Part shown: in pieces, positions 44,768 to 64,000 of the stretch | How the letters are laid out: each line of letters opens with the position of its first letter | Position numbering within the stretch: position 1 is the first letter of the stretch | Origin: Lentzea tibetensis | Lineage (GTDB): Bacteria > Actinomycetota > Actinomycetes > Mycobacteriales > Pseudonocardiaceae | Length of the DNA: 64,000 nucleotides | Assembly: GCF_007845675.1 (NCBI RefSeq) | Contig: NZ_VOBR01000007.1 | Span: forward strand, 1 to 64,000 | Direction: 5' to 3' | Made by a program: the position numbers and the translations under genes | The notes under the pieces: generated by a model | What the model was told of the DNA's origin: nothing | Database searches by the model: none | What the model saw: only the letters and a program-made list of their open reading frames with translations

Positions 44768-44839
44768 GGGCGTTTAGCTCAGCGGGAGAGCGCTTCGTTC
44801 ACACCGAAGAGGTCACTGGTTCGATCCCAGTATCGCCCA
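44768..44839 (+). tRNA. tRNA-Val (CAC), element integration site
   Basis: The sequence starts GGGCGTTTAGCTCAG and ends CAGTATCGCCCA, with anticodon loop TTCACAC (CAC). The acceptor stem has a T-T mismatch at 6-67; the other pairs are good. The 3' half (about 44812-44839) is the probable attachment core of the adjacent integrase. A strong terminator follows. Confidence 0.93.
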
Positions 44840-44845
44840 TTTCAG

Positions 44846-44962: not shown

Positions 44963-46306
44963 TCAGTCGTCCTCCTCTTTCAGGACCGGTAGGAATAGAC
45001 CACCGATGGCCTCCGCCGCGTCGGCATCGATGTCGGGGATGTCTTCGGTGTAGGTGTCGAGGGTGAACGCCACCTTGGCGTGTCCGAGCCGACTGCTCAC
45101 GATCTTCGGGTGTGTGCCGGACCGCAGCGCGATCGTGGCGTAGGTGTGCCGCACGTCGTGCAGCCGGATCCGCGGCAGACCGGCGCGGTCCACGATGCGG
45201 TTGAAGTGCTCGGTGATCGTGTCCGGGTAGATCGGGGTGCCGTCCTCCCAGCAGAACATCAGCCCGTGGTCCTGGTAGGTGCTGCCCCAGAGCCGTTTCT
45301 CCTCCTCGATCATCGCGACGTGGATCCGGACCACCGCCACGGTGAACGCGTCCAGCGCCATCGAACGGCGGCTCTTCTGGCTCTTGCCGCTGCCCGCCTG
45401 CACCTTGCCGCCCGCGACCACGCGCGTCGCGTTCATCCGGACTCTCGCCTCCTCAGGAGCGAACCTGTCCAGCGGCAGACCGCACAGCTCGGAGCGGCGC
45501 ATGCCGGTGGCGGCCTCCAGCACCCACATCGCGAACAGTCGCTCTCCACGCGCCTCCTCCAGGAACCGCCGCAGCTGCGCCGGCGTCCAGGTCTTGTGCG
45601 GCCGACGCGGCACGGATGGCGCTTTGACACCGGTGACCGGGTTCCTGCCGATGTACTGCCAGACAACCGCGGTCGTCATGGCCGAACTCAGCATGATGTG
45701 CACGCTCTGCACCGTCTTCGGAGACAACCCGGCTTCCGGCGGACTCGGCACCCTGCCGACCTCGTACCGTCGAAACGCCTTGCGCGCCGCCGCGTACGAG
45801 ACGCCTACCTTGTCGGCGACCTCACGAGGCCGGATCTCCCGCTTGCTCAGCTGAGCGTCTTCCCAGAGTTGGAACATCTCCCAGTTCGTGTCGCGCTTGC
45901 GCCTCCCCGCCGTCAACAGGTGCTGATACAGCGCCACGATCACGGACGGCACGATCTCCTGCATCGACCGCTTCCCGATCCACGGCAGCACGTACGCCTT
46001 GGCGAGCTGCTCGTAGTTCGCCGCGGTCGTGGGCTCCGTCGTCGTGTGCGCGTACGGGATCCACCTTTCGAAGAAGTCGGAGACCTTGGCCCTGGACGGC
46101 TTGACGTAGGTCTCGGTCTTGATGGCGTTCTGCGCTTCCGCCATCGCGTCCCACGCGTCGTCTTCGGTTTCGAAGCCGCTCTTGGTGATCCGCTGACGAT
46201 CACCGGTCAACGGGTGCGGCGGGCCATCGAACGCATACGCCCACTTGTTGCCACGCTTGAAGACAGTGCCCGGTATCTGACCCCGGTTGGGCTTTCGCTT
46301 GGTCAT
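44963..46306 (-). CDS. int: Tyrosine site-specific integrase
   Basis: This 447-residue phage-type integrase has an N-terminal arm-binding domain (GNKWAYAFDGPPHPLTGDRQRITKSGFETEDDAW), a SAM-like core-binding domain and the catalytic domain. The catalytic set is complete: Arg in ATGMRRSEL (270), HxxR in HDVRHTYA (383/386), His in LGHAK (409), Tyr in LDTYTED (419). An extra segment at about residues 134-190, with a helix-turn-helix-like REVADKVGVSYAAARKAFRRYE, is inserted in the core-binding region. Its 3' end faces the tRNA. It overlaps xis by four bases. Confidence 0.95.
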   Translation of the reverse strand: MTKRKPNRGQIPGTVFKRGNKWAYAFDGPPHPLTGDRQRITKSGFETEDDAWDAMAEAQNAIKTETYVKPSRAKVSDFFERWIPYAHTTTEPTTAANYEQLAKAYVLPWIGKRSMQEIVPSVIVALYQHLLTAGRRKRDTNWEMFQLWEDAQLSKREIRPREVADKVGVSYAAARKAFRRYEVGRVPSPPEAGLSPKTVQSVHIMLSSAMTTAVVWQYIGRNPVTGVKAPSVPRRPHKTWTPAQLRRFLEEARGERLFAMWVLEAATGMRRSELCGLPLDRFAPEEARVRMNATRVVAGGKVQAGSGKSQKSRRSMALDAFTVAVVRIHVAMIEEEKRLWGSTYQDHGLMFCWEDGTPIYPDTITEHFNRIVDRAGLPRIRLHDVRHTYATIALRSGTHPKIVSSRLGHAKVAFTLDTYTEDIPDIDADAAEAIGGLFLPVLKEEDD

Positions 46307-46503
46307 GCCGCGTCCGCAGCGAGCTGCTCGTCGGACGCGAGGAACTCCTCAAGCCGAGCACGGACGACGTACACACGTCGGCCGAACCGCCGAACACCCG
46401 GCAACTGGTTTGCGTCTGCGTAGCGGTAGGCGGACGCGCGGCTGATGCCGAGGAGTTCGGCGGCCGCAGGGACGGAGATGAGGGCAGGCTGCTGGTCGGA
46501 CAC
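46303..46503 (-). CDS. xis: Excisionase (MerR/HTH_17-type)
   Basis: This 66-residue protein is a single winged HTH: LISVPAAAELLGISRASAYRYADANQLPGVRRFGRRVYVVRARLEEFL, the AlpA/HTH_17 excisionase form. The ATG at 46503 and the ATGA overlap with int make the pair a translationally coupled unit. Its start is 33 bp from the first iteron cluster, which may be its promoter or binding region. Confidence 0.92.
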   Translation of the reverse strand: MSDQQPALISVPAAAELLGISRASAYRYADANQLPGVRRFGRRVYVVRARLEEFLASDEQLAADAA

Positions 46504-46535
46504 GGATGCTCCTCGGAGTCGACGCCGCTGGGCTG

Positions 46536-46860
46536 CCGCAGAAACCGCAGAATCCGCAGAATTGGCGGTAGTTGTGGGTTTGTGCAGCTCAGTGGCGGTG
46601 TCGGTGATCTTGGCTCGCTTGCCGCAGAATTCCGCAGAATTGCCGCAGAATTCAGGGCGGTCGCGGCGGCGGCCCGCGTGCGCGGAGCACCTGGCGGCTG
46701 CGCGTGGCGCCGGGGCCGCTCGCCTCTCCCCGCAGCTGGGTATTTGTGCGGCAGTTCTGCGGAGTTCTGCGGCAGACGGCCCGTGATCGGCCGCAGCACT
46801 GCTGACCAGCGCAGATCCACCCCTTGAAGGATTTCTGCGGATTCTGCGGTTTCTGCGGCA
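46536..46860. repeat. Iteron-like array: 11 copies of CCGCAGAA in four clusters
   Basis: Non-coding 46504-46863 holds four clusters. A is at 46536-46563 (three CCGCAGAAN units, 9-bp period). B is at 46622-46653 (three CCGCAGAATT units, 10-11 bp period). C is at 46754-46774 (two inverted TTCTGCGG units). D is at 46832-46860 (three inverted TTCTGCGG units, 9-bp period). A and B face C and D. Candidate roles are the replication origin of the element, or the site that controls xis-int. The 9-bp period without a 10.5-bp helical phase is unusual. Confidence 0.8.
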
Positions 46861-46863
46861 GGG

Positions 46864-48429
46864 TCATCGCGCGGGCTGCCGGTGCGCCGGGTGCACGAAG
46901 TAGGTGGGGCTGGGCTTGCGGCCTCGTCCACTGCGTTCGGCTTCGGGTGCGCGCTGGATGTGGAAGTGCTGTTCGAGCAGATCGAGCGCGGGCAGCAGGT
47001 CGGCGACCTTGCGGAACCGTGCCCTGGTGATCGAGGTGAACAGCTCGCGGACGGTGAAGCTGATCGGTCCCTGCCGCTCGATCCACGCGAGCACCGCACG
47101 GGCGTCGTCGGTGGCCTCGTCGCTGCCCATGTAGTCGAACGCACCGAGTGCGTGCGCGAGGTAGTAGGAGCCGAGAGCGCGGGCGCGGCTGAACGTCTCG
47201 CTGGTGATCTCGGTGGACCACTTGTCGGCGGGACGGTCGGCGAGGTGCAGCAGCCCGGCGAGACGGGCGACGGTCCCGGCGTACTTGGCGGCCCAGTCGG
47301 TGATGTGGTGCAGGGTGCCGCCGCGCGCGAGCTGAGGTTCGAGTTCGGTCTGCAACGCGAACATGTCCTCGTCGGCATCGTGGCTGAAGTCGACGGTGGT
47401 CAGGTCGCGCGGTGCCAGGTGCAGCACCAGTTGCGCGAGCCGTGTGCGGTAGGTGGTGCTGATGTGGTCAGGGACTTCGGGTACGCGGATCTCGCGGTGT
47501 CCGACCGTGCTGACCGGCAGCGAGTAGAGGAAGCGTCCGAGCAAACCGCGTTCCTTGGCTGCCTTGATCTGTCCGAGGTCGCGGATGATCTGCGGCTGTA
47601 CGACGAGGCCCAGGGTGAGGTAGGCGTGTTCGATGAAGTCGGAGTCGCGGCCCTGGCGGTCGACCTCGAGGTATTCGCCGGCGTGGCCGCGCAGGAACAC
47701 CTCGTAGTTCGGGGTTCCTGAGTAGCGCCCGGCGATGTTGGCGACGATGCCGCCCTCGGGTGCGAGCACGGCCAGGCGTCCGCCCTGTTCGGACATGATG
47801 GTGGCGGCCTTCTCCGCGGTGATGTCGTCCACGACCAGGCGGGGCTTGGCTGGGATCACGATCTCTTGTGCGCGCAGCGCCGCGTCACTGGCCAGGCCGA
47901 TGGACACGACGTCGGCGCTACTGGCGGATTTCTCCAACTTCTCCGCTTCGCGTTCGGCGACGACCTTCTGGATGCGGGTTTCCTCGATCTGCGGCAGCGC
48001 GAGTTCGACGAGTTCAGCCTGAGCCTCGCGGATGGGTCCAGCCATGGCAGCGAACACGTCGGACTTGCGCGATCCCGGCGGCAGCGCCACAGCCAGGAAC
48101 AGGTTGACCGGCTGGGTCCAACCCGGCCGGATACGCACGCTGATGCGCCCGGCCGCGGCCGTCGACAACGCGGACAGCGCGACACACCCGGCGAGGTCCG
48201 CCGGTGTCTGGGTGAACTCGGTGACGGCGCTGACCATGTCGGCCGCCCAGCCGGGCAGGACGTCGACCGGGAACGTGGGCAGCGCCCGCTGTGCAGCCGA
48301 GAGCGGAACCGGCTGCTCCCAACCGTCTCCGGTCTGGTTGGCGCCTCCGGACTGGCCAGGTTCGTCCGGCACAGCACGCAGAACGCGCGCAGCACCAGTC
48401 TCGGGCAGGTGCTTGTTCGTCGCGTTCAT
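46864..48429 (-). CDS. DUF3987 (YfjI-type) replication-associated protein
   Basis: This 521-residue DUF3987 protein is commonly found beside primase-polymerases on plasmids and AICEs, and probably has a helicase/primase-accessory role. Recognisable blocks are FPVDVLPGWAADMVSAVTEFTQTPADLAGCVALSALSTAAAGRISVRI, LFLAVALPPGSRKSDVFAAMAGPI, a P-loop-like segment, APEGGIVANIAGRYSG and GLLGRFLYSLPVS. The C-terminal part has winged-helix character (IERQGPISFTVRELF). It starts 103 bp after the primase gene. Its 3' end abuts iteron cluster D. Confidence 0.85.
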   Translation of the reverse strand: MNATNKHLPETGAARVLRAVPDEPGQSGGANQTGDGWEQPVPLSAAQRALPTFPVDVLPGWAADMVSAVTEFTQTPADLAGCVALSALSTAAAGRISVRIRPGWTQPVNLFLAVALPPGSRKSDVFAAMAGPIREAQAELVELALPQIEETRIQKVVAEREAEKLEKSASSADVVSIGLASDAALRAQEIVIPAKPRLVVDDITAEKAATIMSEQGGRLAVLAPEGGIVANIAGRYSGTPNYEVFLRGHAGEYLEVDRQGRDSDFIEHAYLTLGLVVQPQIIRDLGQIKAAKERGLLGRFLYSLPVSTVGHREIRVPEVPDHISTTYRTRLAQLVLHLAPRDLTTVDFSHDADEDMFALQTELEPQLARGGTLHHITDWAAKYAGTVARLAGLLHLADRPADKWSTEITSETFSRARALGSYYLAHALGAFDYMGSDEATDDARAVLAWIERQGPISFTVRELFTSITRARFRKVADLLPALDLLEQHFHIQRAPEAERSGRGRKPSPTYFVHPAHRQPAR

Positions 48430-48532: not shown

Positions 48533-49429
48533 CTAGGCGGCGTCGCGGTGCAGGCGGCGGGGGCGCGTGGCTCCGAGCTTGATTCCGGACTGGACGGTGG
48601 CCGTGATCTGGCGGGGCGTGCAGTCGCAGTCGCCGGTGACCATGTGCGCGGCGGATTGCTGCAACATGTGGGCAGCGTCGGCGTGGCCCAGCTCGTTACC
48701 CCCGACCAGTTGTCCAAGGCTGAGCGCGGCCTGGAACAGGGTCTTGTTGTGGCGGCTCCGCTGGGCGGCTGCGACCTTGGCGCACTCGCCGGTCACGATC
48801 GCGTCCAGGTACGCGGACCGTTGCGCAAGGGCGTTCTGGCCGGGCGCTGAGGCGGCCGTGGACGGCTTGGCGGCGGGTGGCTGGACCAGCCAGATGGGTA
48901 GTTCGGCAGGCGGGCGGTCGTCGGTGACCTCGTAGCGGCCAGCGGCGGTGATCGATGGTGGAGCGACGACGTAGCCGCCGTGTGCGCGGGTGTCGATGAG
49001 CCAGCCCAGCGTGCCCGCCGTGTTGCGCAACGGGTGGCCGGCGGGTGCCCGGAAGTACAGGTGCGTGCCACCGGATGGGGTGTGCGCGGTCCAGGTGGCA
49101 GGGATCGTGGTGCCAGCCCGTTCGGCCAGCACCGCCAGGACGTCGAGCCCTGTTGCCACTCCGAGCATGTTGAAGCCGTCCGGTGCGACCTGGCCGGGCT
49201 TGGCGACGTCGCAGTCGACCACGACGAGGTGTGACGGCCCGGTCGCGATCGCGACGTTGTGGTGTGGGTAGCGGGTCCAGAAGTCGCGGATCACCGTGGG
49301 GTCGGTGGTGGCGCGGGACTCCCACTCGTCGACGGCGGGGCGTTTGGCGCCGGGGACGACGGGGAAGACGTGCCAGCCGCATGCGGCGGCGCGCAGGATC
49401 TCAGCGAGGCGGGCGGGTTCGGTGCTCAC
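48533..49429 (-). CDS. Bifunctional primase-polymerase (Prim-Pol)
   Basis: This 298-residue AEP-superfamily primase-polymerase is the probable replication initiator or primase of the element. The metal-binding pair is in LVVVDCDVAKPG (about residues 69-75). SGGTHLYFRAP and DTRAHGGYVVAPPS are the other catalytic blocks. A helical C-terminal region follows (CTPRQITATVQSGIKLG). The GTG at 49429 with AGGAAGGAA upstream is chosen. It is downstream of the small hypothetical gene and upstream of the DUF3987 gene, which is typical for prim-pol AICEs that lack RepSA. Confidence 0.9.
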   Translation of the reverse strand: MSTEPARLAEILRAAACGWHVFPVVPGAKRPAVDEWESRATTDPTVIRDFWTRYPHHNVAIATGPSHLVVVDCDVAKPGQVAPDGFNMLGVATGLDVLAVLAERAGTTIPATWTAHTPSGGTHLYFRAPAGHPLRNTAGTLGWLIDTRAHGGYVVAPPSITAAGRYEVTDDRPPAELPIWLVQPPAAKPSTAASAPGQNALAQRSAYLDAIVTGECAKVAAAQRSRHNKTLFQAALSLGQLVGGNELGHADAAHMLQQSAAHMVTGDCDCTPRQITATVQSGIKLGATRPRRLHRDAA

Positions 49430-49526
49430 ATCGGTTCCTTCCTGGGGGCTTGAGTTGGTGCCGTGGCGGGGCGAGGTGGTGGGCTGCACTCGCCCCGCCA
49501 CGGGGTCCGGGTGGTGCTGGTGAGGG

Positions 49527-49748
49527 TCAGCTGTCGAGTTCACCGGCGGGCGGCAGGCGATCGGTGCGCGCGGCGGTGGCGCGCACGACACGGGCGGTGT
49601 GTGCGGCCACGGTGAGGTACACGCGACCGAGCACGGAGTCCCCGCGGTTGGGGTAGAAGCGGCTGGCCTCGTGCACGTCGAACACTTCGCGCAGCGCGGC
49701 CACGGCGGCGGTGGTCTCGTCGCGGGTGCCCTCGACACGGATCTTCAT
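49527..49748 (-). CDS. Small hypothetical protein
   Basis: This 73-residue basic protein (MKIRVEGTRDETTAAVAALREVFDVHEASRFYPNRGDSVLGRVYLTV...) has a beta-alpha-beta look. It resembles small AICE-encoded proteins of unknown function. The ATG at 49748 has GAAGGGA upstream. It sits between the methyltransferase and the primase genes and is presumably co-transcribed. I cannot name a family. Confidence 0.65.
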   Translation of the reverse strand: MKIRVEGTRDETTAAVAALREVFDVHEASRFYPNRGDSVLGRVYLTVAAHTARVVRATAARTDRLPPAGELDS

Positions 49749-49774: not shown

Positions 49775-51352
49775 TCAGGCCAGGATCTGGGCGAGGCGTC
49801 CGGCGAGCCATTGGGCGACGTTGGCGGACACGGCGTTTCCGGCCTGCATGGTCTGTTGGGCGACGTTGCCGGTGACGTGGTAGTCGTCGGGGAACCGTTG
49901 GGCGCGGAGCTGTTCGCGGGGGCGCAGCATGCGGTAGCGGCAGTCGGCGACGTCGATGGCGGTGCGCGGCACGCCGTGCTGTTCGCGGGTGGCCACCGTG
50001 GACAGCGGCTGGTCGGTGCCGTGCGGTTTCGCGTCTTTGCGGTAGGGGATGACCAGGGCGTGGTGGTCGCGGGTGGTGACCGCGCCGAACGGCTCGCCGA
50101 TAGGTTTGGCGGCGTGGCGGGGTTCGAGGTTGCCGCCGTAGTTCTTGACGTAGAAGGCGTTCTCCGCGCCGGGCGGCACGGTGAGCCCGTGGTGGTTACC
50201 TCCGGCGGACACGGTGGTCAGCGGGGCGTCCACGCCGGTGGCGGTGGCGTGGTTGCGCAGCACGGTGAGGAACGGCGAGCACACCAGGGCGTCGTTCTCC
50301 CTCGTGGTGCGCGCGGGCATCGGCACACGCAGGCTGGTCGCGTCGCTGCGCCAGGTACCGCCTGAGGGCACCAGGTAGCCGGGCGTGGCCAGGCCGTCCC
50401 CGATCTTCACGGTGCGGGTGTGCAGCGGCGCGGTGCGCGCGGGGTAGGCGCGGCCGTCGTCTCCGCCGTGCGTGACGGTGACCATGGTCGGTTCGCCGAA
50501 CATGGCCAGCCCGGCCTCGATGCGGCGCATGGTGGATGCCGCGAGCGGGCGGGCGCGGTCGCCGATGCGTCCTCCGAGGTCGGTCCAGTCGATCGCGGCG
50601 GCGGCCGGGAGGACGTAGGGCTCCACCAGGGCGTGGCGGCACGCGGCGTTGGGGCAGCGGTAGTCGTACTGCTGGCGGTACTTCCCGATCGGCCGGGGCC
50701 GTTGCTTGCGCCACGACTGCACTGCCCGCACCTGCTCGGCGCACGCCGCGCACCAGGAGAGCGGGCGCGGCGTGACGTCGGGCAGCGGGATGCCCTCACG
50801 GGTGAAGCTCATGAAGAGCCGGTCACGCCACTGGGGAGCGTGCGGGTTGGTCTCGTCGCCGATGTGCGCGGAGCTGACGCTGGTGAACTGGACGTTGTAG
50901 CCCAGCAGCTTCATGCCGCCGATCCACCAGTCGAACAGCTCCCAGTCGGTGGCGACGTCGACCACGTTCTCCACCAGCACGGCGCGGTAGCGGTGCACCT
51001 CGGTGGCGCGGATGACGTCCATGAAGGTGGCGCGGGTGCGCTCGAACCCGGCCTGCCGCACAGGGCCTTGCTCGAGGAGATCGAGCTGGGCGCGCTGGCG
51101 TTTGCGCCCGCCGGCTGGGCTGATCTCGGTGCAGATCGGCGAGGCCCACAGCACGTCGGTGCGCGGCAGGCGCCGCATGTCGTAGTTCGAGACGTCCGCG
51201 CACAGGTGCTCCGCGGCGGGGAAGTTCGCGGCGTGCGTCTCGATCGCCCGGTCCCAGTGGTTCGCGGCCAGCTTGAGCTCGAACCCCGCGGCGGCCAGGC
51301 CGATCGAGGAACCGCCGGCGCCGCAGAAGATGTCGGTGAACGTGAGGGACAT
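49775..51352 (-). CDS. dcm: DNA (cytosine-5) methyltransferase
   Basis: This 525-residue C5-cytosine methylase has SAM motif I FTDIFCGAGGSSIGLAAAGF, the catalytic Cys in WASPICTEISPAGG (motif IV), and ENV (motif VI, VLVENVVDV). It also has QRFPDDY (motif IX region) and QAGNAVS (motif X). An insertion with CxxC pairs (CAACAEQ, CPNAACRH) looks like a zinc module. It has no partner endonuclease nearby, so it is an orphan methylase that probably protects the element from host restriction. It begins at the TGA of the upstream gene (TGATG). Confidence 0.9.
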   Translation of the reverse strand: MSLTFTDIFCGAGGSSIGLAAAGFELKLAANHWDRAIETHAANFPAAEHLCADVSNYDMRRLPRTDVLWASPICTEISPAGGRKRQRAQLDLLEQGPVRQAGFERTRATFMDVIRATEVHRYRAVLVENVVDVATDWELFDWWIGGMKLLGYNVQFTSVSSAHIGDETNPHAPQWRDRLFMSFTREGIPLPDVTPRPLSWCAACAEQVRAVQSWRKQRPRPIGKYRQQYDYRCPNAACRHALVEPYVLPAAAAIDWTDLGGRIGDRARPLAASTMRRIEAGLAMFGEPTMVTVTHGGDDGRAYPARTAPLHTRTVKIGDGLATPGYLVPSGGTWRSDATSLRVPMPARTTRENDALVCSPFLTVLRNHATATGVDAPLTTVSAGGNHHGLTVPPGAENAFYVKNYGGNLEPRHAAKPIGEPFGAVTTRDHHALVIPYRKDAKPHGTDQPLSTVATREQHGVPRTAIDVADCRYRMLRPREQLRAQRFPDDYHVTGNVAQQTMQAGNAVSANVAQWLAGRLAQILA

Positions 51353-51786
51353 CAGCAGGCCTCCGCGTACTCGTTGGCTTCGAAGCAGGTCCAGCAGCGC
51401 TTGTAGGAGGTGGGCACGCAGTAGCCGACGTCGCGTTGGCATTGCGGGCACCAGCGGCGGGCGGCCATCGCCTTGTCCAGCGCGAAGATCCGCGCGGCGT
51501 TGAGCGGCCGGACCGGCGCGGCGAGGTCCACGCGGAATAGGTCGGCCATTTCCTCGCGCCGGTAGGGCTTGCGGTGGCGGAACCACAGCAGCGCCTGCGC
51601 GCCCTGCCCGTTCGGGCGCAGCCCGATCATCCGCAGCTGGCGACGTGTGGCGAGACCAGGTGGGACGGCGCCGGGCTTCCCGCGCCAGGCAAACACGATC
51701 AGCCCGAACTCCCAGCCCCGGCAGAACGCCATCTGCCCGTTCCACGGCAGCACCACCTCGCAGATCGGCCGGGTGAGGCCGCTCAC
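51352..51786 (-). CDS. RRQRL-type zinc-binding protein
   Basis: This 144-residue protein contains TRRQLRMIGLRPNGQGAQALLWFRHRK (RRQ(R)L-type motif) and a C-terminal zinc-binding part with WCPQCQRDVGYCVPTSYKRCWTCFEAN (two CxxC pairs). This is the form often found on actinomycete integrative elements. It overlaps both neighbours (GTGA and TGATG), so it is in the same translational chain as the methylase. A DNA- or RNA-binding role is inferred from the zinc fingers. Confidence 0.8.
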   Translation of the reverse strand: MSGLTRPICEVVLPWNGQMAFCRGWEFGLIVFAWRGKPGAVPPGLATRRQLRMIGLRPNGQGAQALLWFRHRKPYRREEMADLFRVDLAAPVRPLNAARIFALDKAMAARRWCPQCQRDVGYCVPTSYKRCWTCFEANEYAEAC

Positions 51787-52214
51787 CAGTGGTCCCGGCC
51801 TTCGGCGAGTTCGGCAACGACGCGCTGCCGGACCTTGAGCTGCTCGATCAACCGCGTCAGCACGCCAGCAGCCCGATGGAATTGCTGGTCGCGAACGAGG
51901 TCGGCGACATGCTGCACGGCGTCGCCGGTGCGGTCGGCCCACTGGCGCCACGAACGCTTGGCCTTGTCGATGAGCTGCTGCAAGTGCTCGCGGTCCCACT
52001 CATCGCCAGCGGTCTCCTCGCCCTGCTCGGTGGGCGGGTGCAGCGTGGCGCCAGTCCATCCGCAGTCGCACTGGGCGACGTAGCCGACGAACTCGCGGGT
52101 CTCGTGCGTCCACGTGCCGGTGAGCTTGCCGCTGGGGAGCTTGCGGGCGGCGTAGCCCTCGTGGGAGTAGGAGTCGATCAGGTCCGCGTACGGTCCGCAG
52201 TAGACGATGCCCAT
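51783..52214 (-). CDS. Hypothetical element protein
   Basis: The 143-residue protein begins MGIVYCGPYADLIDSYSHEG and has a CDCGW pair at about residue 50. A long charged helical C-terminus follows (LQQLIDKAKRSWRQWADRTG...). The ATG at 52214 overlaps the TGA of the GGDEF gene. No family is recognised; related proteins occur on AICEs. Its C-terminal helices may be a coiled coil. Confidence 0.7.
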   Translation of the reverse strand: MGIVYCGPYADLIDSYSHEGYAARKLPSGKLTGTWTHETREFVGYVAQCDCGWTGATLHPPTEQGEETAGDEWDREHLQQLIDKAKRSWRQWADRTGDAVQHVADLVRDQQFHRAAGVLTRLIEQLKVRQRVVAELAEGRDHW

Positions 52215-53914: not shown

Positions 53915-54403
53915 TCAGGCGGTGAGGACGGCGAGGGCGAGCAGGGCGAGGCCGGTCAGCAGCAGGTGGACCGCGGTGCGGATCCGCCAGTACTTCGCGA
54001 CCACGGCGGCCGACATCGCGGCCAGCACCTCGGTCCGGACGATCAGCGCGCCCGGTTCGATGAGGTCGGCGAGCAGATCGGTGGGCAGGCCGCGGAAGCG
54101 GGCCCAGCGTGGGAACCCGTAGGGGCAGCGGTAATCGAGGGTGGGGCGGAGCACGGCGAGCAGCAGCACGATCGCGGCGGCGATCGGCAGCGCGGCGAGG
54201 TGCAACAGCACGGTGGCGGCGGAACCGGGGTGGGTGCCGAGCAGCGCGACGACGCCGGCTAGTGCGGCGCCGAACAGTCCGAGCAGGCCGATCGCCTTGG
54301 TGTCGGCGCGGCGCAGCTCGTCGCGCACTTCGCTGTCTGCGGCCTTGAGCGCCTCCTGGTGGTGCTGGTCGGTGGGGATCGCGGTGAACTCTGCTCGAAC
54401 CAT
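53915..54403 (-). CDS. PycTM-like membrane protein (Pycsar effector family)
   Basis: This 162-residue protein starts with a charged helix (EALKAADSEVRDELRRADTKA), then about three membrane segments (residues about 38-56, 62-85 and 142-160). The ADTKAIGLLGLFGAALAG pattern and YGFPRWARF loop match proteins annotated as Pycsar-system effectors, which depolarise the membrane on binding cyclic UMP or cCMP. No uridylate/cytidylate cyclase is next to it; the nearest nucleotide cyclase is the GGDEF gene. The assignment is by residue pattern only. The ATG at 54403 has GGAGG upstream. Confidence 0.55.
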   Translation of the reverse strand: MVRAEFTAIPTDQHHQEALKAADSEVRDELRRADTKAIGLLGLFGAALAGVVALLGTHPGSAATVLLHLAALPIAAAIVLLLAVLRPTLDYRCPYGFPRWARFRGLPTDLLADLIEPGALIVRTEVLAAMSAAVVAKYWRIRTAVHLLLTGLALLALAVLTA

Positions 54404-54594: not shown

Positions 54595-56577
54595 TCACGC
54601 TGCGTTATGTGCGGGCGCGCGGTAGACGGTGGCGCGGCCGTCGCTTCCGGCCTCCTCGAGGACGCCGTCGCGGGCGAGGGCGGCGAGCTCACCGGACACC
54701 CAGGACCGGCCGCGGCCGAACGTGGTGTCGGGGTCGGGCAGGTCCCGCACGGTGATCTCGGTGCGTCCCTCGGCGATCAGCTTGTCGACGATCAGCCGCA
54801 GCCGCTGGCGGGCAACCCGGCGCGGCGGGCGACCGGCAGGCAACTCCATGCCGGGGTCGATGGGCAGGTCGCTGTCGAGATCGCCCTCGAGGTCCGGCTC
54901 CGGGTCGGCGGGCAGCTCGATCAGCGTGGCGTCTTCTTCATCGGAGGGCAGGGGCATCGCGTCCAGGTCGTCCACGGCCGCGGTGGCGCGTGAGGTCGTA
55001 GGGGCGATGACGCCGGCGGTCCGCGCGCCTTCCGGGCGTTCGGTCAGGCCCAGCAGCTTCGCGGTGGGCGCCCACAACCCTGGTCGTACGTCGCGGTACT
55101 CGGTGAGCGCCGCGGCCAGCTCGGAGTCGGTGGTGCTGAACGTGCGTGCGGGCATGGCGAACCTCTCCTCGTCGATACCGGGGGCCTCGAGGTAGAAGGA
55201 CCCGGCGCGGCGGTTCTTCCACCGGTCCGGCCGCGCCCCGGCCTCGATCGCGTCGTCGGACAGGCAGAACCCCGCGTCGTCGATGCTGTTGACGCCGAAA
55301 CACCACGCGGCACCGAGCTGCGAGCGGATGTCGGTGTTCATCCGGCGGAAGCTGGACTTCTGCTGCGACAGCACCAGCGCGATCCCCGCGGACCGGGCCT
55401 CCTCGGCGATGCGGGTCAGCGTGGCGGCGTCCTCGAGCACCCGCGAGGCCTCCTCGATCCACAGCACGATGAACGGCATGTCGTGCTGCTCGAACACCTC
55501 CGGCCGCCACTGGTCGAAACCCCACTTGCCCAGCTGCGAGGCCTGCTCGGTAATCACGTCCGGGACGCGGGTGATGAACCGGCGGCACGCGTCGTGCCCG
55601 ATCACGGTGTGCACGTTGTCCCCGAGGAACCCGACCGTCTGCTCGCCCTTCGAGGGATCGAGCACGATCAGCACCGCGTCGCGACGGGTACCGGCCTCGG
55701 TCCAGGCGAGCTTGCCGCCGTGCGACTTACCCGACCCGTTCATGCCGTTGATCTGCACATGGGTCAGCTGGCGAGCGGTTGCCTTGTCACCGGGCAACCA
55801 CAACCGCACCTGCTCGCCGTCCTCGTACAGACCAGGCACCAGTGGCTCCACAATGGACCCACCGGGCGCGGACGGCCCCGGCCAGGTCTGCGGGTGCCGA
55901 AGCACGTCCTTCGGGACGATCGTCATCGTGGCCTGCGACAGGTCGTCCGGATCACCGCTGATGCGCACCGCGCCCTTGTGCAGCCGCAACGCACCGGCCA
56001 GCTTGTCCGAGGCGGCCTGCACCTCCTCCACCGTGACCTCCCCGGCCGGGAGCTGCAGGGGAGCGGTGACCTTGTTCGGCGCCACCTCGATCTCCCGCGT
56101 CCGCACCCCGGCCAGCTTGACCTTCTCGAACAACCCACCCGCCCCGTCGCCGTCCCGGCCCCGCAGAGCACGGCGGATGTTCCAGGACAACGCCACACCG
56201 GCGCCGCCGTAGAACCACAGCCCGACCAGCGGCTGCCGCCACGGCGGGTTGATCGCGCACGCGACCATCCACGCGGTCGCGATCACGACGGTGAGCGCGG
56301 CGTGCGCCTTGGTCATCGGCGACCTCGAGCCCGCTTCCTTCCACGCCACCCCGGCCAGCACCGCACCGCCCACGGCCAAACCCGAGGTCAGCCACGGCAG
56401 GTGCGGCGAGTCGGACATCATCGCGTGCGTCAACGCACCCAGCGGCCACACCAGCAGCAACGCCAGCCACTGCCCCAAGTACGGGGCGAGCTTGCTGCCC
56501 ACGTAGTTGCGGGGTACGTAGTAGCCCATCTCGGAGTTGCTGGCCGCGAGGTCGCCGCCACCCGTCCGCTTGCCCAT
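54595..56577 (-). CDS. tra: FtsK/SpoIIIE-type DNA translocase (TraB family)
   Basis: This 660-residue mycelial transfer protein has an N-terminal region with four or five membrane-associated segments (to about residue 135). The FtsK-type ATPase has Walker A NGMNGSGKSH (278-286) and Walker B FIVLWIEEASR (369-379). An acidic linker (LDSDLPIDPG) and a winged-helix C-terminus (LPDPDTTFGRGRSWVSGELAAL) that may recognise a clt-type sequence follow. It moves double-stranded DNA between hyphae. It is the key transfer gene of the element and lies near the palindromic block. Confidence 0.92.
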   Translation of the reverse strand: MGKRTGGGDLAASNSEMGYYVPRNYVGSKLAPYLGQWLALLLVWPLGALTHAMMSDSPHLPWLTSGLAVGGAVLAGVAWKEAGSRSPMTKAHAALTVVIATAWMVACAINPPWRQPLVGLWFYGGAGVALSWNIRRALRGRDGDGAGGLFEKVKLAGVRTREIEVAPNKVTAPLQLPAGEVTVEEVQAASDKLAGALRLHKGAVRISGDPDDLSQATMTIVPKDVLRHPQTWPGPSAPGGSIVEPLVPGLYEDGEQVRLWLPGDKATARQLTHVQINGMNGSGKSHGGKLAWTEAGTRRDAVLIVLDPSKGEQTVGFLGDNVHTVIGHDACRRFITRVPDVITEQASQLGKWGFDQWRPEVFEQHDMPFIVLWIEEASRVLEDAATLTRIAEEARSAGIALVLSQQKSSFRRMNTDIRSQLGAAWCFGVNSIDDAGFCLSDDAIEAGARPDRWKNRRAGSFYLEAPGIDEERFAMPARTFSTTDSELAAALTEYRDVRPGLWAPTAKLLGLTERPEGARTAGVIAPTTSRATAAVDDLDAMPLPSDEEDATLIELPADPEPDLEGDLDSDLPIDPGMELPAGRPPRRVARQRLRLIVDKLIAEGRTEITVRDLPDPDTTFGRGRSWVSGELAALARDGVLEEAGSDGRATVYRAPAHNAA

Positions 56578-57080: not shown

Positions 57081-58433
57081 TCACGCCACCCGGTCGCGTT
57101 CGGCCAGCACCGCGTCGTAGACCGCCTTGCGGCGCCTGCCCCCGACCGACAACCCGGCCGCCCGCAGGCTGGCCAGCAGCGCGTCACGCGACAACCGGTC
57201 GCCCAGCTCGGTCGCGACCCGACGAGCAGCAGGCATCAGGTCCGTGATGTCGACCCCGTCGACCACCACCGGCTCCGGCACGGTCGCTTCCGGTTCGCCG
57301 CGACCGGACAGCCGCAGCCACCCGAACCTGCGCGGCCGGACCGCCTGGTCCTCACCGCCCTGGTAGACGGCGTTGTCGCTGGTCGGTCGCGACCGGGTCG
57401 TCTCGGCCGCCTGCTCATGCAACCGGTCCGGTCCGAACAGCAGCGCCGCCGCCCCGGTCACCTGCTCGGCCTCGCGGATGATCGCCTCAGCCTCACGGCG
57501 GCGGGCCTCGTCGGTCGCCTCGATCCGCGATGCCACCACCCGACCGAACCGGCGTCGCGCCCGCCACCCGAGAGCCTTGCGAGCCTTGGCACGAGCTCGC
57601 CGTTCGGTCACCTCACGGTCGGCGACCGAGAGCGCGTCGGCCGCGTCGGTCAGTCCGTGCCGCAACGCGACCGACCATGCCCGCCACGTCCACAGTGGAT
57701 AGCGCATCCACCGCGCCGCACCGAACCGCGGACGCCGATGCGGCAGCCGACCCGCCACTGCGAGCGCCTGACGATGCACACGCCGCTCACGTGCCTCCCA
57801 CACCACCACACCCACGATCGACAGCACACCCACCGTCGGGTCACCGGAATGCGCCCAGTTCGAGCCGGCCGCGTAGCCGACCACCAGCCACATCACCAGC
57901 CGCTCCACCCACGACGAGTCATCGCGCGTGACCTCGCTGCCGTCGAGGGCGGTGACGGTGATCGTCTGACGCGCCTGATGAGCCAGCCGTCCGCACACCA
58001 GCCCAATGCACTCGATTCCCGTGGCCGCCGCAGCAGCCAGCGGAGCGGGCCAGCTGAGCCGCTCGGAGAACAGCTGGAACTGCCCCCACCACGCGCCAGC
58101 CATCGCCAGCACGATCGGCACCACGATCACCCGATCCGCCAACCAGACCTGCAACCGCATCGACCACGCTGTGCGCCGCGCCTGACGTTCCGCACCGCGC
58201 TCGCGGCGCCACACACGGGCTTCCTGCTTGGCTTCCAGCCTGCGAGCACGCTCGGTGCGCTGGTCCTCCAACTGCGCCAGCTTGCTCGAACGCTTCGCCT
58301 CCGCACGCTCACGCGCCAGGTCGATCTCCGCGCGCCGCAGCTCGAGGTTCCTCACCGCAGCGGCGTCCGCGCGCCGGATGTCCGCCTCCGTGCTCGCCGC
58401 GATCCGCACGGCCTTGCGATCCAGGAGCGTCAT
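57081..58433 (-). CDS. Large spread-type membrane protein
   Basis: This 450-residue protein has a long charged coiled coil at about residues 15-85 (RAEIDLARERAEAKRSSKLAQLEDQRTERARRLEAKQEARVWRR). Four hydrophobic segments follow at about 95-185 (VIVVPIVLAMAGAWW, LAAAAATGIECIGLV, ERLVMWLVVGYAAGSNW, VGVLSIVGVVVW), resembling DUF2637/SpdB proteins, then a charged tail with a DNA-binding-like C-terminus (ALLASLRAAGLSVGGRRRKAVYDAVL). Spd proteins help spread elements through the mycelium. The ATG overlaps the upstream TGA (TGATG). Confidence 0.75.
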   Translation of the reverse strand: MTLLDRKAVRIAASTEADIRRADAAAVRNLELRRAEIDLARERAEAKRSSKLAQLEDQRTERARRLEAKQEARVWRRERGAERQARRTAWSMRLQVWLADRVIVVPIVLAMAGAWWGQFQLFSERLSWPAPLAAAAATGIECIGLVCGRLAHQARQTITVTALDGSEVTRDDSSWVERLVMWLVVGYAAGSNWAHSGDPTVGVLSIVGVVVWEARERRVHRQALAVAGRLPHRRPRFGAARWMRYPLWTWRAWSVALRHGLTDAADALSVADREVTERRARAKARKALGWRARRRFGRVVASRIEATDEARRREAEAIIREAEQVTGAAALLFGPDRLHEQAAETTRSRPTSDNAVYQGGEDQAVRPRRFGWLRLSGRGEPEATVPEPVVVDGVDITDLMPAARRVATELGDRLSRDALLASLRAAGLSVGGRRRKAVYDAVLAERDRVA

Positions 58434-58690
58434 CACCGACCACCGCGCCGCTGCATTTCCCGCACCGTCACAACCCCACGCCCCAGCGACGCGAACTTGC
58501 CGCGCACCACCACCCGCCACACCAGCCCGACCGCGACTGCGTAACCGGAGGCGCCGGCCAACACGAACGGGAACCACGAGGGCGGAAACATCAAGTAGCC
58601 GACCAGCACCAGCAGTGCGGGCCAGAACAGCAACTTGATCAGCGACCACGCGAGCTTGAAGGGCAACAGCGCCAAGGACAACACCCGCAT
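58433..58690 (-). CDS. Small spread-type membrane protein
   Basis: This 85-residue protein has membrane stretches LALLPFKLAWSLIKLLFWPALLVLVGYLMF and WFPFVLAGASGYAVAVGLVWRVVV, and a basic tail (VTVREMQRRGGR). ATG 58690 is preferred to GTG 58693 because it forms a TGATG overlap with the upstream gene. It is a typical small AICE membrane gene. Confidence 0.75.
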   Translation of the reverse strand: MRVLSLALLPFKLAWSLIKLLFWPALLVLVGYLMFPPSWFPFVLAGASGYAVAVGLVWRVVVRGKFASLGRGVVTVREMQRRGGR

Positions 58691-62420: not shown

Positions 62421-64000
62421 GCAGCGCTGGGCGTCCGCGCTCGGCGAGGATCGCAACCCGAGGACCGCCGCCTCATCGAGTGGTGCCAAGGCGCAGCGCT
62501 GGGCGTCCGCGCTCGGCGAGGATCGCAACACCATCGCCGGTGGCCGGGTGCTCATCACGTCCCTCGGCAGCGCTGGGCGTCCGCGCTCGGCGAGGATCGC
62601 AACGCTTCTGTGAGAACCCTCAGTGCCTCGGTGTAGGCAGCGCTGGGCGTCCGCGCTCGGCGAGGATCGCAACTCCGATGTGCCGAGGATGCGGGCTTCC
62701 CAGGCGGGGGCAGCGCTGGGCGTCCGCGCTCGGCGAGGATCGCAACGTGCACTGTTAACTTGAGTTGCCTGGTGCCTAGCGGGCAGCGCTGGGCGTCCGC
62801 GCTCGGCGAGGATCGCAACTGGTGCGGGTGTGCGAGGAACACGCCGACGAGTCGCAGCGCTGGGCGTCCGCGCTCGGCGAGGATCGCAACTTGGCAGACG
62901 CGGCGCGGAGGGGCCCCTTGTTTTGCAGCGCTGGGCGTCCGCGCTCGGCGAGGATCGCAACAACGGCGTCATCGTCACCGGGGAGAGCCCAGGAGGCAGC
63001 GCTGGGCGTCCGCGCTCGGCGAGGATCGCAACGAACGACAAGCAGTAGAACGGATGAAGAAGCTCGACGGCAGCGCTGGGCGTCCGCGCTCGGCGAGGAT
63101 CGCAACTTGCCGAGGATGAACGTGACCTCGCCCGTACGTTCGCAGCGCTGGGCGTCCGCGCTCGGCGAGGATCGCAACCGCGTCGAACGTGACGCCCAGC
63201 CGGTGATCCTCCATGCAGCGCTGGGCGTCCGCGCTCGGCGAGGATCGCAACCAGTTTCTTCAGTCGCGCGAACATCGCCTCGTTCGGCAGCGCTGGGCGT
63301 CCGCGCTCGGCGAGGATCGCAACCCCGACCGGGTGGTCGAGTTCCCGACCAACGTGGAAAGCAGCGCTGGGCGTCCGCGCTCGGCGAGGATCGCAACTGG
63401 ACCGACCCGCGCAACAACCTCGGCAACATCCAGCAGCGCTGGGCGTCCGCGCTCGGCGAGGATCGCAACTTGGAGGAGGCCAACAAGATCGGTAAGCGCT
63501 GCTACGCAGCGCTGGGCGTCCGCGCTCGGCGAGGATCGCAACAGTCTGTGCTGCTGCAGCGGTGAGGCTGAGACCCGCAGCGCTGGGCGTCCGCGCTCGG
63601 CGAGGATCGCAACGCTGGCACCGTCCCGAGGATCCGGCGCATGCTGCAGGGGCAGCGCTGGGCGTCCGCGCTCGGCGAGGATCGCAACTGGAAGGTCTGC
63701 GTCAAGCGGCTGCGTCACGCTCGCCGGGCAGCGCTGGGCGTCCGCGCTCGGCGAGGATCGCAACGACGTGGACGCGGACAAATGGAAACTCTACGAAGGC
63801 AGCGCTGGGCGTCCGCGCTCGGCGAGGATCGCAACTGGACAACACGCGGCTGGTGTTCGAACGCGCGCAGGGCAGCGCTGGGCGTCCGCGCTCGGCGAGG
63901 ATCGCAACGTGATCGGCGAACTCGACGCCGAACCGAACGCCCCGCAGCGCTGGGCGTCCGCGCTCGGCGAGGATCGCAACGACACCACGATCGACGGTGA
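62421..64000 (+). CRISPR. CRISPR array, 22 repeats of 37 bp, runs off the window
   Basis: Repeats begin at 62421, 62493, 62567, 62637, 62710, 62783, 62854, 62925, 62996, 63070, 63142, 63215, 63287, 63361, 63433, 63506, 63577, 63652, 63728, 63799, 63872 and 63944. All 22 look identical, starting GCAGCGCTGGGCGTCC and ending GAGGATCGCAAC. There are 21 complete spacers of 33-39 bp and a partial one of 20 bp at the edge. AGCGC and GCGCT within the repeat form a weak stem. No cas gene is in the window. The ATCGCAAC 3' end suggests transcription on the plus strand with the leader on the left. Confidence 0.98.

Follow-up and report, generated by a model that had tools for sequence, protein, structure and literature searches.

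The 12-site iteron array at 46536..46858 of the window (the whole 64,000-nucleotide stretch of Lentzea tibetensis DNA that was analysed) is, judged from the sequence, very probably the replication origin of the element that carries it, with the DUF3987 protein encoded beside it as the initiator. The layout of the array, its conservation behind DUF3987 genes, and the co-variation of its repeat word with a helix of the DUF3987 protein were all seen in the sequence. The original prediction had proposed an origin, a switch for xis-int, or both. The origin part is well supported by comparison, because the array follows DUF3987 and its word co-varies with the predicted DNA-binding domain of that protein, while the switch was given up as the main role.

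Layout of the array and its host element

A word count on both strands found 11 exact CCGCAGAA copies at 46536-46858, in the four clusters with 9-11 bp period that had been described. Two clusters point each way, as claimed, with six copies on the + strand and five on the − strand, and the spacing within the four clusters was 9,9 / 10,11 / 10 / 9,9 bp. The whole window contained 15 CCGCAGAA copies against 2.38 expected, and 15 copies were reached in 0 of 100 shuffles. A degenerate 12th site, CCGCACAA at 46744-46751 (− strand), showed one mismatch to CCGCAGAA and filled the last incomplete triplet, so the layout is one of four triplets, that is, two inverted arms of six sites each. The triplets follow each other with a 9-bp period, a 10/11-bp period, and then both again inverted.

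Arm 1 holds an outer triplet of CCGCAGAA with 9-bp period (46536..46561, + strand; starts 46536, 46545, and 46554) and an inner CCGCAGAA triplet with 10/11-bp period (46622..46650, + strand; starts 46622, 46632, and 46643). In arm 2, the inner triplet (46744..46772, − strand) consists of CCGCACAA and two CCGCAGAA copies at 46755-46762 and 46765-46772, and the outer one (46833..46858, − strand) of three CCGCAGAA copies with 9-bp period at 46833, 46842, and 46851. The spacer between the arms (46651..46743) is GC-rich, with a GC of 0.81. In a repeat search the arms appeared together as a single 118-nt inverted repeat (46533-46650 / 46744-46861), with 74% complementarity and 93 nt between them.

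Both arms carry the same inner boxes, approximately GTTTNNGC[AT]G[GC]TCA and TGATCATGG, as seen in a comparison of 43 arms. In arm 1, Box I is GTTTGTGCAGCTCA (46578..46591, + strand), and similar boxes lie between the triplets of many arms; Box II is GTGATCTTGG (46604..46613, + strand), often GTGATCATGG in relatives. Arm 2 has GATCTGCGCTGGTCA as Box I (46803..46817, − strand) and a Box II around TGATC at 46784-46788 (46782..46791, − strand), whose limits were set by eye. GATCA was present in 28 of 43 arms and CAG[GC]TCA in 18 of 43, where about 0.18 and about 0.03 per arm were expected, respectively. Many relatives have these conserved inner boxes in similar positions.

The array occupies the full interval from the DUF3987 stop (46864) to the xis start (46503), so its predicted place between the two genes fits their limits exactly. 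The location given for 325 bp of repeats was correct, and their length was slightly overstated, as they cover 323 bp (46536-46858). The array starts 5 bp 3' of the DUF3987 stop, with the repeats directly downstream of the helicase gene. No other site in the 31.5-kb element had at least five copies of any 8-mer in 300 bp when the CRISPR arrays were masked.

The element measures 31,474 bp including both att repeats and is integrated at tRNA-Val(CAC). The 48-bp att repeat (44796..44843, + strand) lies in the 3' part of this tRNA gene (44768-44839), and its second copy lies beyond the window at contig positions 76222-76269. A tyrosine integrase (44963..46306, − strand; PF00589) is followed by xis with its HTH_17 / excisionase domain (46303..46503, − strand), whose upstream region is the array. 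Behind the array come the 521-aa DUF3987 protein, the proposed initiator helicase or Rep (46864..48429, − strand; PF13148, E 6.5e-101), the Prim-Pol primase-polymerase (48533..49738, − strand; PF09250), and a C5 methylase gene (49775-51817). An ORF with a Pycsar effector-like domain (53915-54403, − strand; PF18967) and a TraB-like DNA translocase (54595..56577, − strand; NCBIfam NF041214, E 1.2e-239) lie further on. The TraB-like protein scored 797.1 bits against the NF041214 cut-off of 800, and no Pfam family was found for it at E 0.001. The integrase with the 48-bp att repeats and an FtsK/SpoIIIE-type Tra protein with Prim-Pol are both present, and by this gene content the element is a Prim-Pol type actinomycete integrative and conjugative element (AICE). 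No Rep_3 or RepA-type initiator was found among the ten element proteins scanned. DUF3987 was the sole Pfam match of the proposed initiator, to the exclusion of DUF927 and D5/Primase_Cterm, and five of six named relatives of this protein came from Lentzea.

Other features of the element and its host were recorded. The element carries Cas3, Cas5, Csd1/Cas8c, Cas7, Cas4, and Cas1 genes, a set which we take to be type I-C-like, and two CRISPR arrays of a 37-nt repeat, with 50 repeats at 62421-66025 and 17 repeats at 73827-75033 (62421-64000 in the window, from there on in the contig). Spacer 59, in the second array, matched a related Lentzea cavernae element (L070/L035) over 26 of 27 nt, and spacer 12 matched the DUF3987 gene of L069/L036 over 18 of 18 nt. 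From these short matches, the CRISPR system may be directed against rival elements of the element's own kind. Near traB, the ORF at 57081-58649 contains small clusters of four CGCGACCG/GCGACCGA words at 57090-57674 in the window, which are a possible clt candidate. A second DUF3987 gene of the host genome (G000:C97:185297-186835, L051) is 48% identical and has an HTH_17 gene directly behind it; no array was found there.

Conservation behind DUF3987 genes

Among 298 genomes of the family Pseudonocardiaceae, 40 contained DUF3987, with 50 matches in total. The surroundings of 48 matches were taken (the window itself and one fragment were excluded), which gave 49 loci with the window and 47 after two duplicates were removed. 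All loci were thus chosen by DUF3987. A scan for triplets, in a word definition that presumes a [GA]CANAA core, recovered the full ordered set of four triplets in 23 of 49 loci (22 without one duplicate) and in 0 of 30 shuffled loci. When any word was allowed, triplets of near-identical octamers at 9-bp steps occurred 47 times in the 39.8 kb at DUF3987 stops and 9 times in the remaining 817.5 kb, a 107-fold enrichment across the 47 loci (none in 100 shuffle rounds). Such a triplet lay near the DUF3987 stop in 30 of 47 loci. In the equivalent zone behind other genes it was present in 0 of 38 cases for Prim-Pol, 2 of 26 for TraB, 1 of 15 for integrase, and 0 of 10 for methylase.

In a paired test, a triplet had to be joined by an inverted partner, with at least 7 of 8 columns in the strict form and 6 columns in the looser one. 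The strict form was passed by 29 of 47 loci against 0 of 235 shuffles and 0 of 47 control zones, and the looser form by 36 of 47 loci but also by 4 of 47 control zones. When the loci were sorted, partly by eye, about 29 arrays were two-armed, 10 minimal, and 1 displaced. The array, whose lack of conservation in related elements had been named as evidence against the proposal, was therefore present in one of these forms in about 40 of 47 family loci. The displaced triplets of L095 lay at +672 and +762 of the DUF3987 stop. Outer triplets were degenerate in L068-L070, L073, and L082, and only one clear triplet was visible in L058 and L092. In L093 (10544-13381), which has a minimal array, a Cas3 ORF starts 114 bp behind DUF3987.

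The array was not found in seven of the 47 family loci (L049, L051, L064-L066, L083, and L088), and the DUF3987 proteins of L064-L066 are 33-35% identical. It was also not found in L100-L105, where about 1.5 kb on each side was covered. In 15 loci, a search for other repeat periods covered −4500 to +2500 relative to the DUF3987 stop (a shorter range in L100-L105) and gave nothing in 13 of them; L083 showed a small repeat cluster around −2900. One-mismatch 8-mer counts in 450-bp windows were uninformative, because GC-rich words scored equally.

Array geometry was kept while the word varied, with CCGCAGAA, GGACAGAA, TGACAGAA, and GCACAGAA among the words observed. Anatomy was compared in those two-armed arrays that satisfied the site criteria, 21 in number, of which 13 had 6+6 called sites. 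Arm length was 91-136 bp, with 113-116 bp in 34 of 42 arms, and the inter-arm spacer ranged from 24 to 513 bp. As arm length is steady and spacer length variable, the arm, rather than the whole array, appears to be the unit. In 21 of 21 arrays the spacer had a higher GC than both arms, and in 21 of 21 both arms had a lower GC than the locus mean, which is partly due to the iterons themselves. Two spacers contained an ORF: L067:6766-7140 encodes 124 aa with a DUF7736 match just below cut-off, and L089:10822-11220 encodes 132 aa and had no Pfam match.

In the reverse direction, the CCGCANAA triplet pattern CCGCANAANCCGCANAANCCGCANAA gave 37 matches in 18 of the 298 family genomes, and a backward control pattern gave 2 matches in 2 genomes. 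By coordinates, 29 of the 37 matches were at a DUF3987 gene and 8 elsewhere; when the triplet-pattern loci were taken with 1.5-kb flanks, a DUF3987 match was present in 24 of 30. In viral contigs, 32 stretches contained the pattern and just 1 had a DUF3987 match, so the triplet pattern alone is unspecific there.

Across the class, 24 of 394 genomes had a DUF3987 match. Of the 24 loci in the class set, 19 came from genomes; the others were two plasmid records, two phage stretches, and one Clostridium contig. Four of 24 passed the strict paired test, from which six further class loci (L119-L124; partial, weak, or repeated) were excluded. By eye, TGACAGAA words in inverted halves were visible in Streptomyces plasmid NZ_CP107792.1 and in Streptomyces-type loci, and one arm of GGACAGAA in a Tsukamurella plasmid; these failed the strict test. 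A related module lies on an 18.45-kb record deposited as a circular plasmid. In the Clostridium contig (L038), 9-bp triplets (GTGCCAAAA-like) were seen both before the DUF3987 gene and at its end, as though it were flanked by the two arms. The DUF3987 relatives from viral contigs were reduced from 43 to 39 by removal of 3 duplicates and 1 locus without the C-terminus. The strict test was passed by 6 of these 39, by 0 of 195 shuffles, and by 0 of 36 control zones, and the looser test by 12 of 39 and by 2 of 36 control zones. Most viral-contig arrays consisted of just one inverted pair of triplets, which makes the two-armed form look like an elaboration.

Repeat word and the DUF3987 C-terminus

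A word could be assigned in 41 loci, each with four or more neighbouring sites. Five of these were dropped beforehand (L048 and L077 as near-identical, L073 as partial, L060 and L063 for weak words), and the test was run with n = 36; loci whose words lack the [GA]CANAA core lie outside it. Word distance correlated with DUF3987 residues 457-487 at r = 0.48 and with the DUF3987 core at r = 0.28. Given the core, the helix retained r = 0.42 (0 of 2000 permutations, in a test where shared ancestry is not fully modelled), and given the helix, the core fell to r = −0.09. Sliding 30-residue windows reached 0.52 and 0.48 at residues 451-490 (starts 451 and 461, respectively) and at most 0.38 elsewhere.

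The uncorrected word correlation was 0.21 for Prim-Pol (25 loci), 0.39 for TraB (21 loci), 0.21 for integrase (10 loci), and −0.13 for Xis (6 loci). Given the helix, these values changed to −0.09, 0.0, −0.3, and −0.81, respectively, with few loci for integrase and Xis. The helix, in turn, kept values of 0.61 given Prim-Pol, 0.54 given TraB, 0.92 given integrase (n = 10), and 0.98 given Xis (n = 6). In these comparisons the word differences track DUF3987 residues of about 451-490, and Prim-Pol, TraB, integrase, and Xis add nothing.

Single pairs of loci gave the same picture. Between the window and L068-L070 the DUF3987 core is 82-83% identical, the helix 36-46%, and the words are different; between the window and L081/L089 the core is 48-49% identical, the helix 76-79%, and the word is the same. 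L069 and the window share 86% identity in Xis and 76% in TraB. The Lentzea relatives thus resemble a natural domain swap, judged by these identities, though residues 301-360 of the window and L069 DUF3987 proteins also show a fall in identity, to 50-68%. The word CCGCAGAA occurs in L108 too, with a helix just 45% identical to that of the window, so the helix–word code is not one-to-one.

An AlphaFold2 model of the DUF3987 protein was built from a 62-sequence alignment and reached a mean pLDDT of 89.3 and a pTM of 0.83. Its last approximately 80 residues contain helices 438-453, 460-466, and 475-487 and strands 491-493 and 509-512, and are predicted to form a winged helix (residues 438-512, 46894..47118, − strand; third helix 475-487 at 46969-47007), the proposed iteron reader. 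Residues 451-490, which the correlation had singled out prior to modelling, cover the helix-turn-helix of the model. Foldseek found no match at E ≤ 0.001 with this model. The best match was an MCM/CMG subunit (E 1.8e-3, TM about 0.3); RuvB was also returned, and lower down 2mh2, SarA, and Fur, which we take to be winged-helix proteins. As these matches are weak, an MCM-like AAA+ helicase is a lead and not a result. A profile search of solved structures with DUF3987 returned two weak matches (E 0.33 and 0.76). DUF3987 was earlier predicted to be a helicase family (PMC5862659).

Alternative readings and the proposed origin

The whole upstream region of xis is array and Xis is a small HTH_17 protein, which would suit a switch in which Xis or a repressor binds the array to regulate xis-int and so control excision. 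As the main role, this is highly improbable. A tblastn search (E 1e-4) with the Xis of the window gave matches in only 8 of 48 relatives, and arrays were present in many more. In 10 of 10 array-free loci (L049, L051, L083, L088, and L100-L105) the first small ORF behind DUF3987 is an xis-like HTH_17 gene, starting −8 to +49 bp from the DUF3987 stop. Array and xis are therefore separable, and the array is tied to DUF3987 and not to xis. Xis is also 86-88% identical in L069 and L073 despite words that differ from that of the window, and the Xis correlation was negative given the helix, but with n = 6 loci. The next large gene in the eight array loci scanned was an integrase (PF00589) in six, a gene without family in one, and Cas3 in one; five of the six integrases had no tblastn match to that of the window and one matched at 25%, and one was just under the Pfam cut-off. 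Such other or unmatched genes behind arrays also speak against the switch. A secondary effect of the array on xis transcription is kept as an option, since the array fills the entire xis upstream region. In a combined form, DUF3987 on the array would start replication and also cover the xis promoter region, coupling excision to replication, and we regard this as possible though on the unlikely side. The xis start codon is 32 bp from the first iteron, and DUF3987, xis, and int are co-oriented, so any promoter of xis itself would lie in or near the array. This coupling is weakened by arrays that look alike where the next gene differs, e.g., the minimal array before cas3 in L093.

TraB of Streptomyces plasmids recognises clusters of short (8-bp) direct repeats at clt, and the similar repeat length suggests a transfer locus bound by the TraB translocase. 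TraB binding to clt-like regions is also mentioned in PMC3218068. TraB matches were present in 20 of 23 four-triplet loci, the element has no second cluster of five copies of an 8-mer in 300 bp outside its CRISPR arrays, and the uncorrected word–TraB correlation is the 0.39 given above. However, the array is 7.7 kb from traB, the triplets sit at the DUF3987 stop and are present behind TraB in just 2 of 26 zones, and the word–TraB correlation vanishes given the helix while the helix keeps 0.54 given TraB. Moreover, the ten minimal-array loci have no TraB match in the stretch covered, save a 25% partial one in L087. A clt role is therefore very unlikely. Clustered short repeats are known at centromere-like sites too, so that a partition site bound by a plasmid partition protein would also fit the repeats; the co-variation of the word with DUF3987 and the lack of a ParA/ParB-like Pfam match among the element proteins scanned (a subset of ORFs) make this the least credible of the readings.

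For the array as a replication origin, we infer binding, hexamer loading, direction, melting site, priming, and replication start at the array as follows. The C-terminal winged helix of DUF3987 would bind the 8-9-bp iterons. Each arm of about 115 bp, with three sites at 9-bp period, three at 10-11-bp period, and two boxes between them, would suit one AAA+ hexamer, as six sites per arm agree with the hexamer that is expected. The arms, inverted to each other, would load two hexamers in opposite orientations. The helicase would then open the DNA in or beside the arms, whose GC is lower than that of the spacer and of the surrounding locus. Synthesis on the excised circle would be primed by the Prim-Pol, whose gene lies upstream.

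Classical iteron plasmids (Rep_3/RepA) have iterons of about 17-22 bp, DnaA boxes, and a separate AT-rich region. The element shares with them direct repeats at the (here putative) origin for initiator binding, and differs in its word of 8-9 bp and in its proposed initiator, which is a predicted helicase. A likeness is also found in the SaPI and SCC systems. SaPI initiator helicases recognise short repeats just downstream of the helicase gene through their C-terminal domain, and these repeats are thought to be bound by two Rep hexamers; the SCC helicase Cch2 binds repeats at the same place, downstream of its gene, where three iterons were found (PMC7581432). As in SaPI/SCC, the element combines an initiator helicase with a C-terminal DNA-binding domain (predicted here), repeats directly downstream, and a primase in the same element. 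In contrast, the SaPI/SCC helicases belong to DUF927 or D5/Primase_Cterm, whereas the protein of the element is DUF3987 by Pfam. Unlike the three iterons of the Cch2 site there are 12 sites here, six in each of two inverted arms that also carry conserved boxes, and the array belongs to an actinomycete conjugative element. By analogy, the best explanation is that the array works like the self-loading Rep origins of SaPI/SCC, with another helicase family and a two-by-six layout.

The pRN1 family of archaeal plasmids has a primase-polymerase, a hexamer-forming helicase, and a winged helix, as the element is predicted to have from sequence and model, and the essential cis region of pRN1 lies just downstream of the primase/helicase/winged-helix gene (PMC4234260). 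Unlike the element, pRN1 has these domains fused in one protein, and its putative origin is described there as a stem-loop of about 100 bp, with no iteron array. The two-by-six layout is absent from the descriptions of SaPI/SCC and pRN1 origins in the portions of PMC7581432 and PMC4234260 used here. With SLP1-type Prim-Pol AICEs the element shares an integrase, an FtsK/SpoIIIE-type transfer protein, and a Prim-Pol beside a second replication gene, and tRNA-site integration is described for many AICEs (PMC3218068). In the portion of PMC3218068 used here, no iteron origin is described for these AICEs, and the word 'iteron' is absent from the main text; for the 40 AICEs with a Prim-Pol gene in this survey, no origin is described in the same portion. 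A DUF3987 iteron origin was not described in titles and abstracts among the matches listed in searches on DUF3987/YfjI, SaPI-type Rep iterons, Prim-Pol AICEs, and self-loading helicases, a literature that mostly leaves out subscription papers. 'Iteron' was likewise absent from the DUF3987 literature looked at, including the available part of PMC5862659.

Tentatively, and with slightly less than even confidence, DUF3987 (YfjI) proteins may form a broad family of initiator helicases that read origins and have gone unrecognised until now. In its simplest form the origin would be a single pair of 9-bp triplets, inverted to each other, where the helicase gene ends; in actinomycete conjugative elements this pair would have been doubled into two six-site arms, one hexamer each, with the word and the winged helix changing together. 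DUF3987 still carries the name of a domain of unknown function; the origin, the initiator, and the part of it that reads the repeats can now be named as candidates. The loci compared here supply natural helix/word pairs for work on origin specificity and incompatibility. If the wider reading is true, a readable helix–word code would decide which elements share or exclude an origin.
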